Positions 1,513 through 35,986 of a stretch of DNA of 41,023 nt are shown here, piece after piece. Each line of letters begins with the position of its first letter. Position 1 is the first letter of the stretch. A program made the translations under genes and the position numbers. This DNA is from a virus. The notes under the pieces were generated by a model, which worked only from the letters and a program-made list of their open reading frames with translations, had not been told where the DNA came from and did no database searches. The stretch lies in the IMG/VR virus record IMGVR_UViG_3300044796_000653, positions 1-41,023 of that record; one strand, 5' to 3'.

Positions 1513-2598
1513 TCACTCCATTTCGCTGTGCAGATTGATCGAGTCCAGCGGGTTTTTTCCCGCGACATCGCGCAAATGGTCTGGCGCAAGGTGCGAATAT
1601 CGTTGCGTCATCTGGATGGTTTTGTGACCGAGAGCTTTATTCAGCCGCAGGAAATCACCGCCGTTGATCATGTAGTGGCTGGCAAAAGAATGCCGAAGAA
1701 CGTGAGAAAGCTGGCCGGGCGGCAACACGATTGCAGCTTTCTCAACCGCCGCCTGGAACGCGGCATAAGAGCCACCAAAGATCGGTTCGTTGATCGCCTT
1801 GCCATCGCAAAATGGCTTCAGCCGCGCAGCCAGTGCAGCGCTGATCGGCAGCTGGCGGGATCCAAAGTTTTTAGTCTTGGTGTACGTCACTCGATTGGTT
1901 TCAAAATCAACTTGGCCGCGCGTCATCGATTCGGCCTCGCCCCATCTCGCACCGGTTGAAAGGCACAAGCGCGTGATGCAACCGACAAACTCATTCCTGC
2001 TTTCATCGACGGCCGCTAGTAATAATTTTATTTCGTCATTGGTCAAATATCGCGCGGTGCTATCATCGAGTGGGATCAGCCGCACACTGGCAAATGGATT
2101 TTCACCGCGCCACTCGCGCATCTCAATGGCCTTGCCAAAAACGGCTTTCAAATAAGCGTGTTCGTGATTCACTGTATTTTCTGAAACTTTTATTTTGCGG
2201 CCTTGTTGCAAACGCTCTGATCCGGTTTGAACGGGCACAACAATTTCACCAGCTAGGCGAACCCTTCGGTAGTTCGTCCACAGTGTTGGAGTCAAATTTC
2301 GCAACAGCGGATTTCTCATTCCCCGGCAGGAAAAATAGAGTTTTTTTAAACGCGCTTCGCCGTCGCGCAGCGTGTGCCCGTGCGCAGAAAACCACCAATC
2401 AATCAGCTGCTTTAAATTCCGGTTATCGTTTTTTTTTGCAATTGATTGCCCAATGTCCGCTTTGTTGAGTATCTCGCGTTCAATAGCGCGTGCTTCTATT
2501 TTTGTATCAACGGTTTTACGCACACGCTTGCTGACTGCTGCGTGTTCCGGCCTCACATCGACAAACCACTTGCCGTTTTTCAGTTGCCGGATAGGCAT
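1513..2598 (-). CDS. int: Tyrosine-recombinase phage integrase
   Basis: Catalyses site-specific integration and excision between the phage site and tRNA-Leu. The 361 residues include an N-terminal segment of the P2/HP1 integrase type (MPIRQLKNGKWFVDVRP) and the catalytic set R218 (STGAR), H299-x-x-R302 (SHVLRH), H325 (LGHK) and nucleophile Y334 (QRYSH). The gene reads toward the tRNA and ends next to the arm-type repeats. Its ATG at 2598 lies two bases after the repressor stop codon (TAATTATG), so translation is probably coupled to the repressor and both come from the leftward promoter. Confidence 0.95.
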   Translation of the reverse strand: MPIRQLKNGKWFVDVRPEHAAVSKRVRKTVDTKIEARAIEREILNKADIGQSIAKKNDNRNLKQLIDWWFSAHGHTLRDGEARLKKLYFSCRGMRNPLLRNLTPTLWTNYRRVRLAGEIVVPVQTGSERLQQGRKIKVSENTVNHEHAYLKAVFGKAIEMREWRGENPFASVRLIPLDDSTARYLTNDEIKLLLAAVDESRNEFVGCITRLCLSTGARWGEAESMTRGQVDFETNRVTYTKTKNFGSRQLPISAALAARLKPFCDGKAINEPIFGGSYAAFQAAVEKAAIVLPPGQLSHVLRHSFASHYMINGGDFLRLNKALGHKTIQMTQRYSHLAPDHLRDVAGKNPLDSINLHSEME

Positions 2599-2600
2599 AA

Positions 2601-2936
2601 TTATGCGTGCGGGATTGGTGGCAGGCGCTTTTCCAGATTGTAGCCTGTCGGTATATTGTTTTTTTTGATGTTGAACACCATACGCTTTGCCAGTTTCCGG
2701 TCGTCGGTTTTCATTTCATCAAAATCAACGTCACCATCAAAAGTCAGGTAGCGCGAAAAGTACGGGAATTGTTTGCAAGCCTTAGCGAACACATCATCAG
2801 TCATCCGCTGCTTGTGCTGTTCGATATTCTTCAATCGGTCGTAATCAATCCCCAGGGCCGCTGCGAATTCTTTTTGTGTCAATCCGGTCAGGGTGCGCAG
2901 CCCCTTTAGCCGTTCACCCGCTGTTGTTGCCGTCAT
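2601..2936 (-). CDS. HTH phage repressor (CI/C-like)
   Basis: Small XRE-type DNA-binding protein of about 111 residues. A helix-turn-helix near residues 12-45 contains LTGLTQKEFAAALGIDYDRLKNIE, the classic pattern of Cro/CI-family proteins. The ATG at 2936 is preferred over an upstream GTG (2942) because AGGG lies six bases before it. It is divergent from the Cox-like gene across a region with palindromic TTTACTC-containing sites, so it most likely maintains lysogeny and controls both promoters. There is no peptidase domain, so induction would not follow the LexA/CI self-cleavage route. Confidence 0.8.
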   Translation of the reverse strand: MTATTAGERLKGLRTLTGLTQKEFAAALGIDYDRLKNIEQHKQRMTDDVFAKACKQFPYFSRYLTFDGDVDFDEMKTDDRKLAKRMVFNIKKNNIPTGYNLEKRLPPIPHA

Positions 2937-2970
2937 ATACACCCTATCAAGTAACTACTCTACGGTACGC

Positions 2971-2999
2971 ATTCTTTGCTTCATTTTACTCGCAGTCAA
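2971..2999 (-). promoter_or_regulatory. Candidate leftward promoter for repressor-integrase
   Basis: On the minus strand, TTGACT (2999-2994) and AAGAAT (2976-2971) are separated by 17 bp. The spacer and -35 edge contain a TTTACTCGC half-site also found in the operator at 3127-3145, which suggests autoregulation. The -10 box is weak. Confidence 0.45.
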
Positions 3000-3087
3000 G
3001 TATTTAATGCTTCCTTAAGCTCAATAAGATAACAAAGTCAAGTGTTGAAAAAATAATATTTACATCGAATTTACTCTGATTTACCCG

Positions 3088-3117
3088 TTGACAAGTAAAA
3101 TTTACTCCTCGTATCAT
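3088..3117 (+). promoter_or_regulatory. Early rightward promoter with operator in the spacer
   Basis: TTGACA (3088-3093) and TATCAT (3112-3117) with an 18-bp spacer point toward the Cox-like and primase genes. The spacer contains the palindrome AGTAAA-A-TTTACT (3094-3106), where bound repressor would block RNA polymerase. Confidence 0.65.
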
Positions 3118-3126
3118 TGCCGCGTC

Positions 3127-3145
3127 GCGAGTAATTCTTACTCGC
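3127..3145. promoter_or_regulatory. Candidate repressor/Cox operator
   Basis: Perfect inverted repeat with 8-bp arms, GCGAGTAA-TTC-TTACTCGC, just downstream of the early -10 box. Related TTTACT(C) words occur at 2985, about 3070 and 3101, suggesting one protein binding several sites across the divergent region. Confidence 0.6.
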
Positions 3146-3166
3146 AAAATCGCCGGAGCAGAACAA

Positions 3167-3493
3167 ATGAACGACCAAATAACCAAAGAGCGCGCAATCA
3201 ACGAGGCTATTGAGAGACTCAGGCAGGCGCAGCATAGCAACCTGATAACCACTGACGAGCTGGAAAAAATCATGGAGGTTGCCAGGAATTTGCTGGGAAA
3301 AACCGGCCCCGAATGCACGATGGACGAATGGGCTGGTTTAACCGGGCTTACACGCCGAGCGGTTGAAAGCACCGTTGCTCGCGGCCACCTGCCCGTCGTG
3401 CGTCGCGGCAAGCGTGTGTTTGTCAACGTCGCGGCGATCACCGTAGACAACATCCTGCAAGCCGTGCGCGAAGGTTTTATCAACGCCGCCTGA
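3167..3493 (+). CDS. Cox-like HTH regulator / excisionase
   Basis: A 108-residue protein, first gene of the rightward early operon. The C-terminal half (about 52-100) has a winged-helix-like segment, MDEWAGLTGLTRRAVES followed by RGHLPVVRRGKRVFVNV, as in excisionase and Cox-type proteins that read DNA through a helix and a basic wing. The N-terminal half is helical and charged. GGAG lies 8 bases before the ATG. In P2-like phages the gene at this place (Cox) represses the lysogenic promoter and directs excision. That role is inferred from position and fold, as similarity to P2 Cox is not obvious by eye. Confidence 0.65.
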   Translation: MNDQITKERAINEAIERLRQAQHSNLITTDELEKIMEVARNLLGKTGPECTMDEWAGLTGLTRRAVESTVARGHLPVVRRGKRVFVNVAAITVDNILQAVREGFINAA

Positions 3494-3548
3494 TCCCAGT
3501 CCGGGAAGCTAATCCAGCGAATTATAAAACCTGACACAGGCGGCAACA

Positions 3549-6263
3549 GTGAAAAGCCAGAACATCGAAACAGACATCGTTCACACGCTCGAACACGACG
3601 CGCAGCTGAAGTTCAAGAAAACCAAGGGGAAATATTTAACCGGCGGCACCTGCCCGGAATGCGGATTTGCGGAAATGTTTATCGCCAAAGATAAACCCTA
3701 CGTGCTGCGCTGCAACCGCGCAAACAATTGCAGCTACACAGAAACAACCAGAGACCGCTACCCAGAGCTGTTCAATAATTTTTCTGAACGCTTCCCAGCT
3801 ACGAAACAAAATCCACGTGCCACCGCCGATGCCTACATGGAAAATAATCGCGGCTTTCCCCTGCAAAAAATAGCAGGCTGGTATGAACAGGAAAAGCACC
3901 GGCCAAAGTGGAGCGATAAAACATTTGATACCGTGCGCTTTTATTTCAACGCAGAACGCACGCGCTACTGGGAGCGTTTGATCGACTGCACCAAAGATGG
4001 CGTGCAGCGTTTTAATATCGGTGGTGATCGCAAAACTCTGCAACCGGGTGATGCTGATTATGATGATATGCACGGCACGCTGTACAAGGGCGAAGCCTGG
4101 CAGCCACCAGGGCAGGAAATAAAAGACGGCGACAGCGTTTACTGGGTCGAGGGCATCTTCCACGCTATCGCATTGTGGCTGCACGGCTACAAAGTCGTCG
4201 CAGGAATCGCAGCAGGCAATTACCCGGAATTGTTTTTGCGGCCGTACTACGGAAAAAGCATCACCTGGTGCCTGTGCCTGGATGACGATAAAGCCGGGCG
4301 GGATTACATGGCCAGCCACAGCAAAAAGCTAGGCGCAAAAAAAGAACAGTGGAAAATGTTTCTCACTGGCGGCAAAAAGGACTGGGACGATCTGCACCGC
4401 GACAACAAGATAACCGAAAAATTCCTGGATGACTGCGAATACCGTGGTCGCCTGCACAACGCAGAGAACATCACACACAAGGCCTACATTTACTTTTGCA
4501 AAAACCGAATGCAGCGCACCGTGATGGATTTTGCCAATCGCTATTGGTCAATCACCGTAGAAACAGACAAGCTGCAAAAGGATCTGAATGGCACCGAAGG
4601 TGCAAAGGAGATCGATCTAAAAAGCGAATCAGGCTATGAGTTATTCAAGGCGCATTGCAGCGTCTACACCATCAGCAATTGTCGTCCGGTTTTTCTTTAC
4701 ACGCAGCAGGACAAAACAACCAACGAGCGTCAATATTTTTTCAACGTCGCATTTCCGCACGCCGGGCCAGACGTTCAGATGGCCATCGATGGCAGCATGA
4801 CCGACGCACCCAGCGCTTTTAATAAAGCGTTGTTGAGCAACACGCCCGGCGCAACATTCGACGGCAACGCCATGCAGTTGAAGGTGTTGCGTGATCGCTG
4901 GTTCGATGGTCAGTTGATCCAGGTGAATACGGTTCCGTTTGTGGGCTATTACAGAGAGGCTGCGCTGTATGTATTCCAGGATTTCGCCTATCAGGAAGGC
5001 AAAGAACTGAAGCTCAACGAGCAAAAATATTTTGATGCCAGGCAGTGCAAAATAAAAACCACGTTCAAGGGCTTCCACGTCGTCAAATCAAACGATTTCA
5101 GCAGCGATTGGTTTGAAAACTTTGGCAAAGTGTTCGGTTACAACGGCATTGTCGCGCTGGCGTTTTGGACAGGCTCCCTGTTCGCAGAACAGATCCGCCG
5201 GGATCTCGGCCTGAAATCATTTCCATTCCTGGAATTAACCGGCGCACCCGGTTCAGGTAAATCAACACTGATCGAGTTTTTGTGGAAATTGCTTGGCCGC
5301 GATGATTACGAAGGGTTTGATCCCGGCAAAGCATCCTTTGCCGGTCGCACCAGGGCATTCAGCCAGGTGGCCAACATGCCGGTGGTGCTCATCGAATCAG
5401 ATCGCGATGAAAGTGGCGCAAAAAAAGGTGTGTTTGATTTCGAGGAACTGAAAACAGCCTACAACGGCCGCGCCATCCGTGCCACCGGCGCATTCACGCG
5501 CGGCAATGAAACAGAGGAGCCGCCCTTCCGTGGCTCCATCGTCATCTCACAGAACGCACAAGTGGATGCCAGCGAAGCTGTTTTAACCCGCATTGTGCGC
5601 TGCAACTTTACCGATAAGCACTTCACGCCAGAAACAAAAGCTCTATCGGTTTTTTTTGAATCAGCAGAAGTCGAAAAGTTTTCCGGCTTCCTGCCCGCTG
5701 CGCTCAAGCAAGAAAAGGCTTATCTGGAAAGGTTCCTTCAGCACTATTCGCGCATCGAAAAAGAGTTCACTGCCACCAAACAAATAAAAAATCAGCGCGT
5801 TATCAAATGCCACGCCATGGTCGCGGCAATGGGCCACTGCCTTCCACTGCTGTTTCCGCAATTTCAATCACACCTCGAACAATACACCAACCATGTGTTC
5901 AACAGCGCCATCGAAGGTCAGCGGCGCATTAACGATGATCATCCCTACCTGGCTCAGTTCTGGGAAGTGTTCGACATGCTGAACCACGCAAACGATAACG
6001 ACGGCATGTACAAAACGGAAAAGCTGAATCACTCCAAGGATGCCAACATCATCGCACTATCGCTGCCACACGTGTATCAAGAGGCGGCCAACAAACGGCT
6101 AGAGCTGCCATCGCAAGCGGAAATCAAAAAACTTTTGCCCGGTGGCCGTGTGTTCAAGCACATCGGCATCAAGTCCACCCGATCAGTAATCTGGGATGGC
6201 CGTAACGTCAAATGCTGGGTTTTCAAAAATCATGCCAACAAGGTGGAGGATGCAAAACCATGA
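3549..6263 (+). CDS. Bifunctional primase-helicase replication protein
   Basis: A 904-residue phage replication protein. Near the N terminus is a zinc ribbon (C35, C38, C55, C61). A TOPRIM primase core follows, with the conserved glutamate in WVEGIFHA (E201) and acidic cluster LDDDKAG (D245-D247). Further on is a P-loop ATPase with Walker A GAPGSGKST (565-573) and Walker B VVLIESD (612-618). It would lay primers and unwind DNA at the phage origin. Start is GTG 3549 with AGGCGG six bases upstream. The gene ends at the left edge of a dense repeat array, the probable origin. Confidence 0.88.
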   Translation: MKSQNIETDIVHTLEHDAQLKFKKTKGKYLTGGTCPECGFAEMFIAKDKPYVLRCNRANNCSYTETTRDRYPELFNNFSERFPATKQNPRATADAYMENNRGFPLQKIAGWYEQEKHRPKWSDKTFDTVRFYFNAERTRYWERLIDCTKDGVQRFNIGGDRKTLQPGDADYDDMHGTLYKGEAWQPPGQEIKDGDSVYWVEGIFHAIALWLHGYKVVAGIAAGNYPELFLRPYYGKSITWCLCLDDDKAGRDYMASHSKKLGAKKEQWKMFLTGGKKDWDDLHRDNKITEKFLDDCEYRGRLHNAENITHKAYIYFCKNRMQRTVMDFANRYWSITVETDKLQKDLNGTEGAKEIDLKSESGYELFKAHCSVYTISNCRPVFLYTQQDKTTNERQYFFNVAFPHAGPDVQMAIDGSMTDAPSAFNKALLSNTPGATFDGNAMQLKVLRDRWFDGQLIQVNTVPFVGYYREAALYVFQDFAYQEGKELKLNEQKYFDARQCKIKTTFKGFHVVKSNDFSSDWFENFGKVFGYNGIVALAFWTGSLFAEQIRRDLGLKSFPFLELTGAPGSGKSTLIEFLWKLLGRDDYEGFDPGKASFAGRTRAFSQVANMPVVLIESDRDESGAKKGVFDFEELKTAYNGRAIRATGAFTRGNETEEPPFRGSIVISQNAQVDASEAVLTRIVRCNFTDKHFTPETKALSVFFESAEVEKFSGFLPAALKQEKAYLERFLQHYSRIEKEFTATKQIKNQRVIKCHAMVAAMGHCLPLLFPQFQSHLEQYTNHVFNSAIEGQRRINDDHPYLAQFWEVFDMLNHANDNDGMYKTEKLNHSKDANIIALSLPHVYQEAANKRLELPSQAEIKKLLPGGRVFKHIGIKSTRSVIWDGRNVKCWVFKNHANKVEDAKP

Positions 6264-11078: not shown

Positions 11079-11270
11079 ATGACAACCAACAGATCAGGCG
11101 CAGCGCCACAACTCAAACCCCTTGTCAAAGCCGTGCGCAGGGTGAACCTGGATTGGAGCACCAGGGCAACGTTTGAAAAGAATCTCCAGCTTGCGGCGCA
11201 GCTGCCGGTGCCCAATAAAACAATGGTGGTTGATCCGGCCTACGTGGCCGAACACATCAAAAAGGTTTAA
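11079..11270 (+). CDS. Small phage protein, 63 residues
   Basis: A 63-codon ORF with CGAGG 9 bases before the ATG and stop 2 bp before the next small ORF. Basic and helical (KPLVKAVRRVNLDWSTRATF), no recognisable domain. It sits directly upstream of the Ash/C4-like locus and would share its transcript. Confidence 0.55.
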   Translation: MTTNRSGAAPQLKPLVKAVRRVNLDWSTRATFEKNLQLAAQLPVPNKTMVVDPAYVAEHIKKV

Positions 11271-11272
11271 CC

Positions 11273-11380
11273 ATGTGCTTGCATTGCGCCTTGTTCCGGG
11301 TTTATGCTCTACCCGCTGTGGCAAAATCCACAGCCGGGATTGGCGTCCCGGATTCAAGCAGGCGCACAAACCGCGCTTAA
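11273..11380 (+). CDS. Ash/Icd-like leader peptide
   Basis: A 35-codon ORF beginning 2 bp after the preceding stop. Residues 10-29 carry the VYALPAVAKSTAGIGVPDSS word typical of the N terminus of phage Ash / Icd-like proteins (P4 and P1 families). The reading frame stops inside the terminator hairpin. The later Ash-type word AGWAGEPQGSPDPV continues in another frame (11304-11519). The protein is therefore either split, or the conservation is mainly at RNA level. In P1 and P4 this locus is translated ahead of, and regulated by, the C4 antisense RNA. Confidence 0.5.
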   Translation: MCLHCALFRVYALPAVAKSTAGIGVPDSSRRTNRA

Positions 11381-11392
11381 AGCGGTTTTTTT
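11369..11392 (+). terminator. Rho-independent terminator inside the Ash-like locus
   Basis: AACCGC (11369-11374) and GCGGTT (11382-11387) form a 6-bp stem with a 7-nt loop, followed by T through 11392. The leader-peptide stop codon lies in the loop, so translation to the stop could affect hairpin formation. Confidence 0.75.
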
Positions 11393-11535
11393 ATGCGCGC
11401 TCGGTAACCGTGTTATGGCGGGCTGGGCAGGGGAGCCGCAAGGCTCGCCGGATCCTGTTTGCCGGTACGCCAACCTTGTCCAGTTCGTCACCCTTGATTG
11501 GCGTCAAGGGGGCGATTAACCCACGAAAACAGGTA
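11393..11535 (+). ncRNA. C4-type regulatory RNA candidate (ash/icd region)
   Basis: This stretch has strong RNA structure. GAGCC-GCAA-GGCTC (11433-11446) is a GNRA-capped hairpin. CCCTTGA (11491-11497) pairs perfectly with TCAAGGG (11504-11510) around a 6-nt loop. The order GCTGGGCAGGGGAGCC, then GGCTCGCCGG, then GCCGGTACGCCAAC resembles the C4 antisense-RNA region of P1/P4-type phages from memory. Processed C4 RNA controls expression of downstream early genes through antisense pairing. The exact RNA ends cannot be set. Confidence 0.5.
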
Positions 11536-11541
11536 ATATTT

Positions 11542-11772
11542 ATGGCAAAACCAACCCCAAGCCTTACCCCCAAAAAACTCCTTGCTGGTGAACTTGCAGG
11601 CCAGGTGGCAACCGTGTGCGAGAAAATCGAGCTGCTGCGCATCCTCATAGATCGCGGCCAGTCTGGCGAAAGCCTGACGCTCAGCTTCAGTGCCACCATA
11701 GGCATGGCCAGCATCCTGCGCGAAATCAAGGATCAGCTGGATGCCGTGGACTCGATCTTGATGGAGTTTTAA
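11542..11772 (+). CDS. Small phage protein downstream of the C4-like RNA
   Basis: A 76-residue protein with AGGTAA before the ATG. Mostly helical (LLAGELAGQVATVCEKIELLRILIDRG; ILREIKDQLDAVDSILMEF), probably a small dimerising regulator, but no family is recognised. The same frame stays open far upstream through the structured region, but those codons look like a by-product of the Ash/C4 sequence. A terminator begins 8 bp after its stop. Confidence 0.6.
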   Translation: MAKPTPSLTPKKLLAGELAGQVATVCEKIELLRILIDRGQSGESLTLSFSATIGMASILREIKDQLDAVDSILMEF

Positions 11773-12575: not shown

Positions 12576-13508
12576 TCACGCAGGAATTAGTGGTGAGATC
12601 GCAAGCTGCATTACCCAATATTCCTCGGCAATTATTTTTGGTTTTTCGGTAACTAGCCCCTGATGTATTGCGTGTTCTATCTTGCGTCCATGTGTTGGAT
12701 GAATCCAGTCACGCGATGCGCAGGTTCCAACAATCAAATAATCCGTATGCGAGCTTATATCTTTTGAGACAACACCACCGCGCTGCTGTATTGCTTCGGT
12801 AACAACACGTCTGGTTCCATATAAAAACTTTCCGGTTACAACGAAATGGGATTCGAGAAAAATAATTTCATCCGGTAGTTCCGCGCCGATACTAAACGCA
12901 CGGGTTGCCATACCACCAACAGCACCATTCCCGTCAAATCCGCCACCGATAATGGCGTTGATAACATCCAGCAAATCCAGCCGTTCTTCGTTGGTAACAA
13001 TTCCATCGGCAAGTATGGCTTTCAGCCTGTTTGTTATTAAATCCGCAGTCCAGTCGCCGGATAATACTGGTGTTGATTTTAGCCAATCAGAAAGATAATT
13101 TATTTCGGCGTCGTTTAATATTTTGTCGGCTGTCAGGCCATAAAACATACCGAGCAGCGTTTGCATTGCACTTTCGTAGTCACTATCCCCTACATCATCG
13201 TCACGATATTCCAACACGCAATTTATCAACTCTTGCAAATCCTGTATTTGCTCGCTGGTTGCAAATTGTGTTGACAGCACATCATTTAACAATTCGACGA
13301 TATCGACAACATCGGGATCATCAGCGATTTCAGCGCCCTGGTTCTTCAACCAAATATCGAGGCAGAGCAACTCACTATCAACCAGCTTGTTATCTGCAAC
13401 GATGCCGCGCAACAAACCAAGCAGCGTATGAAAATCACGCTCACGCCTGCGCTGGCGGCTAAAGGACGCTGGCGGTTGCCCGTCTCTATCTCGATTACTT
13501 TGGGGCAT
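12576..13508 (-). CDS. TerB-like and BRCT-domain protein (moron)
   Basis: A 310-residue protein read against the surrounding genes. Residues about 24-100 and 105-190 are two related helical units, each with the TerB-like pattern G-x-x-A-D-x-x-x-x-D-x-E-x-x-x-L-x-x-WL (LLRGIVADNKLVDSELLCLD; MFYGLTADKILNDAEINYLS). Residues about 215-305 form a BRCT domain of the NAD-ligase type (HFVVTGKFLYGTRRVVTEAI, GGVVSKDISSHTDYLIVG, SRDWIHPTHGRKIEHA). AAGGGAG precedes the ATG. BRCT modules bind phosphopeptides or DNA ends, so a DNA-transaction or damage-related function is plausible. Orientation and isolation indicate its own transcription unit, perhaps expressed in the lysogen. Confidence 0.75.
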   Translation of the reverse strand: MPQSNRDRDGQPPASFSRQRRRERDFHTLLGLLRGIVADNKLVDSELLCLDIWLKNQGAEIADDPDVVDIVELLNDVLSTQFATSEQIQDLQELINCVLEYRDDDVGDSDYESAMQTLLGMFYGLTADKILNDAEINYLSDWLKSTPVLSGDWTADLITNRLKAILADGIVTNEERLDLLDVINAIIGGGFDGNGAVGGMATRAFSIGAELPDEIIFLESHFVVTGKFLYGTRRVVTEAIQQRGGVVSKDISSHTDYLIVGTCASRDWIHPTHGRKIEHAIHQGLVTEKPKIIAEEYWVMQLAISPLIPA

Positions 13509-35929: not shown

Positions 35930-35986
35930 CTTAAAATCCCTCGGTTGGAAACGACCGTGCCGGTTCAATTCCGGCCTCGGGCACCA
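35930..35986 (+). repeat. attR: second tRNA-Leu 3' half
   Basis: Starts with the 14-bp core CTTAAAATCCCTCG and continues through variable arm, T arm, acceptor strand CTCGGGC, discriminator A and CCA. It differs from the tRNA at 1334-1422 at 7 of 57 positions. The variable-arm changes keep base pairing (CGGTTG/CGACCG), and CTCGGGC pairs perfectly with the tRNA 5' strand GCCCGAG. It is not a complete tRNA gene, having no 5' half. Confidence 0.88.

Follow-up and report, generated by a model that had tools for sequence, protein, structure and literature searches.

The segment at positions 11273–11535 of the window, which is the whole 41,023-base stretch of viral DNA analysed here (IMG/VR virus record IMGVR_UViG_3300044796_000653), raises the question of whether its features belong to a small protein-coding gene, to a leader peptide acting on a terminator or to an antisense RNA, and of which gene such a system would control. 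A sequence-only reading of this DNA had described a 35-codon leader ORF containing the word VYALPAVAKSTAGIGVPD, a stop codon in the loop of a strong terminator and, further on, two hairpins, and had proposed translation-dependent readthrough together with a processed C4-like RNA of the P1/P4 kind in a P2-family phage. The ORF (11273–11380) is present as described, and its TAA stop codon (11378–11380) falls within the 7-nt loop of the terminator hairpin at 11368–11388, which is followed by a T run. On the combined evidence presented below, the locus is very probably a C4/CI-type antisense RNA immunity module carried by a P2-like prophage. To the features noted earlier we add a promoter-like hexamer pair preceding an isrK-like RNA, two pairs of antisense target sites and a 76-aa target gene. 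The anatomy of the locus, the two pairings, the joint change of the antisense loop b' with its sites b1 and b2, and the fixed place of the promoter-like pair were all computed here.

All features of the locus described below lie on the plus strand. Three Rfam families match there in overlapping or adjoining positions, each above its curated cut-off: the c4-a1b1 element at 11302–11354 (RF03163, 54.5 bits, cut-off 46.7), the isrK-like RNA, a leader transcript extending to the intrinsic terminator, at 11315–11392 (RF01394, 74.7 bits, cut-off 50), and the C4 antisense RNA at 11411–11495 (RF01695, 76.4 bits, cut-off 45), the latter being the only C4 match in the whole 41,023-base record. The covariance-model search proposed earlier as a check on the C4-like structure is thus positive. 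Both hairpins noted previously are observed, the GNRA-capped GAGCC-GCAA-GGCTC corresponding to C4 helix P2 and, at 11491–11510, the perfect 7-bp hairpin CCCTTGA-TTGGCG-TCAAGGG. The intrinsic terminator, detected by terminator scan and folding, consists of the hairpin at 11368–11388 and the T run, and occupies 11368–11392. Compared with dinucleotide shuffles, folding of the C4 region (11411–11497), the leader (11310–11392) and the segment from 11393 to 11535 gave z values of −2.99, −3.01 and −2.27, respectively, and the region surrounding the 7-bp hairpin (11484–11520) a value of −5.42. RNase P processing to a stable RNA of ∼77 nt is characteristic of the C4 antisense RNA family. If cut as annotated for P1, the window RNA would span approximately 11417–11492, and a GG is present at the expected 5′ end. 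A search of viral and genome collections for the exact C4 core returned no match.

Comparison loci were collected with the leader motif GCAAAATCNNNNNCCGGGNTTGGC, which matched at least 120 viral stretches. The matches listed gave 121 loci including the window, of which 114 had enough flanking sequence and 60 remained after k-mer removal of near copies; every count out of 60 given below refers to the window plus 59 other loci. As all 60 derive from one motif search and are still partly related, they are not independent. Fourteen of these loci, window included, were used to build a C4 covariance model, which matches all 60 loci carrying the isrK leader motif, with 64 matches in total. The resulting alignment comprises 62 distinct rows; paired cells make up 99.7%, 22 of the 27 pairs change on both sides and covariation is 0.531 versus 0.210 after shuffling, values that lean toward the structure as the alignment was fitted to it. 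With this proviso, the three-helix C4 structure is accompanied by covariation. An outer stem, GCGCA/TGCGC (11362–11399 in the window fold), could also form around the isrK terminator together with the T run; over the 60 loci the two arms of the same locus form 5.77 bp on average versus 5.19 in swapped combinations, a difference reached in 0 of 2000 permutations, with 68% of swapped pairs also forming at least 5 bp. Two loci contain more than one C4 match on a single viral contig, L044 with four in series (2353–4992, minus strand) and L071 with two (4596–5078, minus strand), the second at 41.5 bits, an arrangement that suggests stacked immunity modules.

The antisense character of the C4 element is indicated by two complementarities, named a and b following the annotated P1 record. 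The linker after helix P3, a' (ACGCCAA, 11467–11473), is complementary to the loops of two hairpins, a1 (TTGGCGT, 11340–11346, in the hairpin 11334–11351) upstream and a2 (TTGGCGT, 11498–11504, in the 7-bp hairpin described above) downstream. The P3 loop, b' (CCTGTTTG, 11454–11461), matches b1 (CAAGCAGG, 11355–11362), with which it forms 8 bp including one G-U, and b2 (AAACAGG, 11527–11533), with which it forms 7 bp. Two upstream and two downstream sites complementary to a' and b' are therefore present in the window, b1 with the aid of the G-U pair, and the downstream site b2 covers the probable ribosome-binding site in front of the first gene, the ATG of which (11542) lies 8 nt behind it. Across loci, the 7-nt linker is perfectly complementary to a1 in 60/60 and to a2 in 59/60, the exception being L016. 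The search pattern prescribed TTGGC within a1 but placed no constraint on the linker; in five loci with another linker, a1 is altered to match. The P3 loop is highly variable, 48 distinct versions occurring among the 60 loci, and for these the longest Watson-Crick match averages 7.3 bp with the b1 of the same locus versus 3.7 bp when loops are swapped, and 8.1 versus 4.1 bp with b2. None of 10,000 permutations fitted as well at either site. A b2 match was located in 58/60 loci, L025 and L028 being those in which it was not, with a start codon 4–11 nt behind it (script window 2–25 nt).

The order of these elements is that of the c4-icd-ant operon of phage P1, namely promoter, a1, b1, C4, a2, b2 and first gene, with spacings that differ by 0–13 nt. 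Measured from the −10 box, the window and P1 distances are 32 and 32 nt to a1, 47 and 46 to b1, 109 and 120 to C4 (taking the inferred processed end at 11417 as the start of the window C4), 190 and 200 to a2, 219 and 229 to b2, and 234 and 247 to the gene. In both, the first gene is small, at 73 aa for icd of P1 and 76 aa for the window gene, and its start adjoins b2. Unlike P1, the window target is unmatched by the Icd-like model and the two ORFs following it match no anti-repressor family, no frame of P1 beginning with ATG is open from upstream of the P1c4 promoter, and the window record derives from a P2-like and not a P1-like phage.

From its position, the 76-aa gene (11542–11772) is likely the gene silenced by C4. 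The protein is not matched in Pfam, NCBIfam or PHROGs, nor by tblastn against 50,697 phage records, and comparison with the other located targets using phmmer and blastp produced no E-value below 0.16. Exact peptide patterns, which detect close relatives only, gave 63 matches for this gene and 86 for the terminase in viral contigs, none of them confirmed. AlphaFold2 run on the single sequence predicts a helical hairpin with helices at residues 10–40 and 49–75 and a mean pLDDT of 82.2, and a fold search of this model against viral structures returned no match at an E-value of 0.001 or better. At the other loci, 37 of the 58 located target proteins were scanned (E-value up to 0.01, one protein being able to match several models), yielding Icd-like in 12, Rha in 6, Bro-N in 6, ORF6N in 3, AntA in 1 and KilA-N in 1. 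Among targets shorter than 110 aa the frame is open back past the promoter in 18/30, two of these being cut by contig ends, compared with 4/28 of the longer ones. By size, the 76-aa protein resembles the short targets more closely than the anti-repressors; by analogy, it may act as an Icd/Kil-like or an anti-repressor protein.

Expression of the module would originate from a predicted promoter at 11279–11308, comprising a −35 hexamer TTGCAT (11279–11284), an 18-nt spacer and a −10 hexamer TATGCT (11303–11308). When the 60 loci are aligned on the leader motif, the mean −35/−10 consensus score peaks at a single offset at 8.27, the next best being 6.58 within the motif itself and the mean over all offsets 3.87 (sd 0.84). 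The peak offset is the best one in 51/60 loci, and scores of at least 9 occur at 34/60 sites versus 11/239 background windows. A generic promoter scan reported 0 promoters at the window locus. The predicted promoter would place the 5′ end of the isrK-like RNA at about 11315. The leader ATG at 11273 precedes the predicted −35 hexamer, and a further ATG at 11304 lies inside the −10 box. Thus, RNA initiated at this promoter would not include the leader start, and the leader would be translatable only on transcripts entering from upstream. The leader ATG is located 2 nt after the stop of a 63-aa ORF (11079–11270) and is preceded by a ribosome-site-like AAAGG stretch at 11261–11265, an arrangement that may couple translation of the leader to that of the upstream ORF. 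Similar upstream starts recur, as an ATG-started ORF in the leader frame, beginning before the promoter and open to the terminator arm, is observed in 31/60 loci, window included, whereas 100 shuffles of the DNA upstream yield 14.6 on average and at most 23. In the two remaining frames such ORFs number 3/60 and 1/60, below the 7.2 and 7.4 expected, and the excess in the leader frame shrinks when GTG and TTG starts are allowed, to 35/60 versus 25.6 (maximum 34). Judged from these reading frames, the entry of translating ribosomes into the terminator appears to be a recurring feature across loci.

This arrangement is close to that of satellite P4 (seqA, CI RNA, eta-kil), which is matched by the isrK and C4 models above cut-off and in which, as in the window, where the ATG at 11273 precedes the −35 at 11279, an upstream-started ORF spans the promoter position. 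In the P4 control this ORF is in the frame of the leader, open through the promoter position, isrK, C4 and the target, and measures 197–199 codons from three adjacent ATGs, the published size of Eta. Unlike the P4 ORF, which continues through C4 into the target, the window frame stops at 11380 and the target lies in another frame, such that the window leader shares the start arrangement of eta but ends in the terminator loop. The linker and P3 loop sequences also differ between the two; cross-immunity with P4 is not supported, as the P4 linker differs. As described in one P4 study (PMC10111431), a constitutive promoter inside eta gives a transcript terminated through CI and seqA, full-length Eta requires an upstream late promoter and coupling to the preceding gene, Eta translation prevents termination, and the Rfam C4 and isrK profiles detect relatives of CI and seqA. 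A more specific reading of the window, which we offer tentatively and regard as possible but on balance doubtful, is that the eta switch of P4 has been split. What remains of the upstream-started ORF would be a leader of 35 codons that is coupled to the last early gene and stops in the terminator loop. Its only role would be to deliver ribosomes, stalled or terminating, to the terminator on early-gene transcripts, while C4 would keep the locus off from the internal promoter. The released product would be a new small helical protein of this P2-like phage, acting as anti-repressor or as inhibitor of host growth.

Whether the window module is still in use depends in part on its own pairings, which are modest when taken singly. 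Only 5 contiguous Watson-Crick bp form between b' and b1, and of 5000 composition shuffles 120 equalled b1 with G-U pairs allowed and 1180 with Watson-Crick pairs alone, the corresponding numbers for b2 being 723 and 125. The energy of the a1b1 duplex was equalled by 32/1000 shuffles and 21/2000 random window segments, while that of a2b2 is no better than chance in either comparison (578/1000 and 1017/2000). These values, together with promoter hexamers that match the consensus at 7/12 bases only and a target for which homologues were not found, are what would be expected of a decayed remnant in which the look of C4 has been kept as the b' pairing or the target gene drifted out of use. Against this stand the C4 score of 76.4 bits, the complete set of P1 elements arranged as in P1 at similar spacing, the perfect a sites and the 7 bp that b2 retains over the ribosome site. 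We consider decay unlikely, noting that it overlaps the immunity module reading as to origin and that the two are not exclusive. The case for the immunity module rests on the entire layout and not on any single window pairing.

The position of the predicted promoter bears directly on the leader peptide. The proposal of leader-dependent readthrough takes its most direct form if the transcript from the isrK promoter itself encodes the 35-codon leader and translation of the latter sets readthrough. The window does contain an ORF preceded by a ribosome-site-like stretch and ending in the terminator loop, but RNA from the predicted promoter would begin downstream of the leader ATG, and a stop inside the terminator hairpin occurs in only 7/60 loci, window included, so that it is not a conserved device. 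Attenuation of this kind is quite unlikely. The leader peptide proposed by the sequence-only reading is retained as an upstream-started reading frame common among the loci but not with respect to its terminator stop, and translation-dependent readthrough would be possible on transcripts entering from upstream but not on RNA from the predicted isrK promoter.

The same region can also be read as protein, and one continuous frame in relatives had been named beforehand as a sign against an antisense RNA. The frame of the leader is open from upstream of the promoter to the end of C4 in 33/60 loci, compared with 12 and 8 for the other frames, yet C4 is present in all 60, indicating that the protein and C4 readings are not alternatives. 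A second frame of the window is open from 11146 to 11772 across promoter, isrK, terminator, C4 and target, encoding 199 aa from a TTG at 11173. As a homologue of Eta this frame (11173–11772) was rejected, as it contains no ATG before 11542 and matches no family, and the continuity seen in the remaining short-target loci is in a different frame (17/17). The later Ash word (NRVMAGWAGEPQGSP) does lie in another frame than the leader, in the ORF 11304–11519, as reported earlier. The Ash protein family profile PF10554 matches 4/10 ORFs chosen for scanning, all four in other viruses (L005, L009, L021 and L044), and in each the matching region begins 12 nt upstream of the isrK start, extending through isrK, terminator and C4. 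The starting offset coincides with the −10 box in L005, L009 and L044, the best box of L021 being 6 nt further on. The six scanned ORFs without a match include the ‘ash family protein’ of phage ZX5 and the 199-aa frame of the window; window ORFs 11273–11380, 11304–11519 and 11173–11769 are not matched by PF10554, and the Icd-like model NF033153 matches none of the window ORFs tested. The fixed offset and the span through C4 suggest that VYALPAVAKSTAGIGVPD and the Ash words further on largely arise from translating promoter and RNA sequence. Given how many loci keep this frame open, some of them may well produce an Eta-like protein. That the locus is an Ash/Icd-like protein-coding gene, its RNA likeness secondary to protein conservation, is very improbable, since the open frame in 33/60 loci and the four PF10554 matches in other viruses are set against a window frame that stops in the terminator, tested window ORFs that match neither protein model, a profile match beginning at one offset in 4/4 and RNA pairs that covary.

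Two further systems resemble the window in part. The isrK-orf45-anrP region of Salmonella Gifsy-1 likewise has an isrK leader, terminator read-through and a processed RNA behind it; this RNA, STnc1160, is likened to P4 CI by the authors of one study, who also report that the short form of IsrK acts in trans to activate translation from the long transcript (PMC4825925). C4-like sRNAs of Acinetobacter baumannii are reported to be highly expressed and processed at a GG site (PMC5320573). The window has a C4-type RNA with GGC at the corresponding place, but A. baumannii carries many C4-like copies per genome, in contrast to the one C4 match of the window record.

The assignment to a P2-family phage made in the sequence-only reading agrees with the large terminase. 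This protein is of P2 type, with 49.2% identity over 96% of the query to that of Pseudomonas phage PaBSM-2607-JFK, which is filed under Peduoviridae. A 14-nt direct repeat from a tRNA-Leu(TAA) gene occurs at 1366–1379 and 35930–35943 and probably marks the attL and attR ends of a ∼34.6-kb prophage. The best match of a neighbouring aminopeptidase among 80 loci listed is a Pseudomonadales MAG at 67%, with some Zetaproteobacteria close behind, suggesting that the host is probably a gammaproteobacterium, one with no close match among the loci listed. Between the C4 operon and the packaging genes, a 310-aa protein (12576–13508, minus strand) matches the BRCT domain at 23.6 bits versus a Pfam cut-off of 21.3. 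An HTH repressor of the phage is encoded at 2601–2942.

Among 12 named phage records searched, C4 is present in P4, P1, ZX5, phiV10 and vB_Pae_CF23a, the last three chosen because an earlier search had matched them, and absent from P2, 186 and five phages with similar terminases (ranks 1, 5, 7, 9 and 25 of the first 25 terminase matches). For isrK, 186 scores 21.4 bits and Pseudoalteromonas phage PY3 scores 19.4 bits, both below the cut-off of 50. A P2-like terminase is encoded in 5 of the 50 viral records bearing C4, among which are many fragments; distant P2-like terminases do occur in the viral collection. A literature search on P2-like phages with C4 antisense RNA, or on antisense-RNA immunity in Peduoviridae, found no reports, which is not proof of absence.

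Processing, termination, silencing and a second upstream promoter we infer from P1 and P4, and on that analogy the module would operate as follows. The promoter at 11279–11308 would produce a short leader RNA (isrK) usually ending at the terminator at 11392, and read-through RNA would be processed to C4. Pairing of a' and b' with a1 and b1 in the nascent leader would favour termination, and pairing of C4 with a2 and b2 over the start of the 76-aa gene would block its translation, such that the gene or genes from 11542 onward would be kept silent in the lysogen. Transcripts from the upstream genes would carry the leader ATG at 11273, and ribosomes entering the terminator may let the polymerase through, as with P4 eta.

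The antisense immunity module of P1 and P4 is thereby placed in a P2-like prophage. For reading C4 loci, the comparison provides a rule, namely that the P3 loop predicts both b sites, and the silenced gene thus becomes predictable. Judging by the four ORFs in which the Ash profile spans from before isrK through C4, some Ash annotations mark this RNA switch. The gene likely silenced by this well-known switch can now be named as that of a small orphan protein, a candidate anti-repressor or growth inhibitor.
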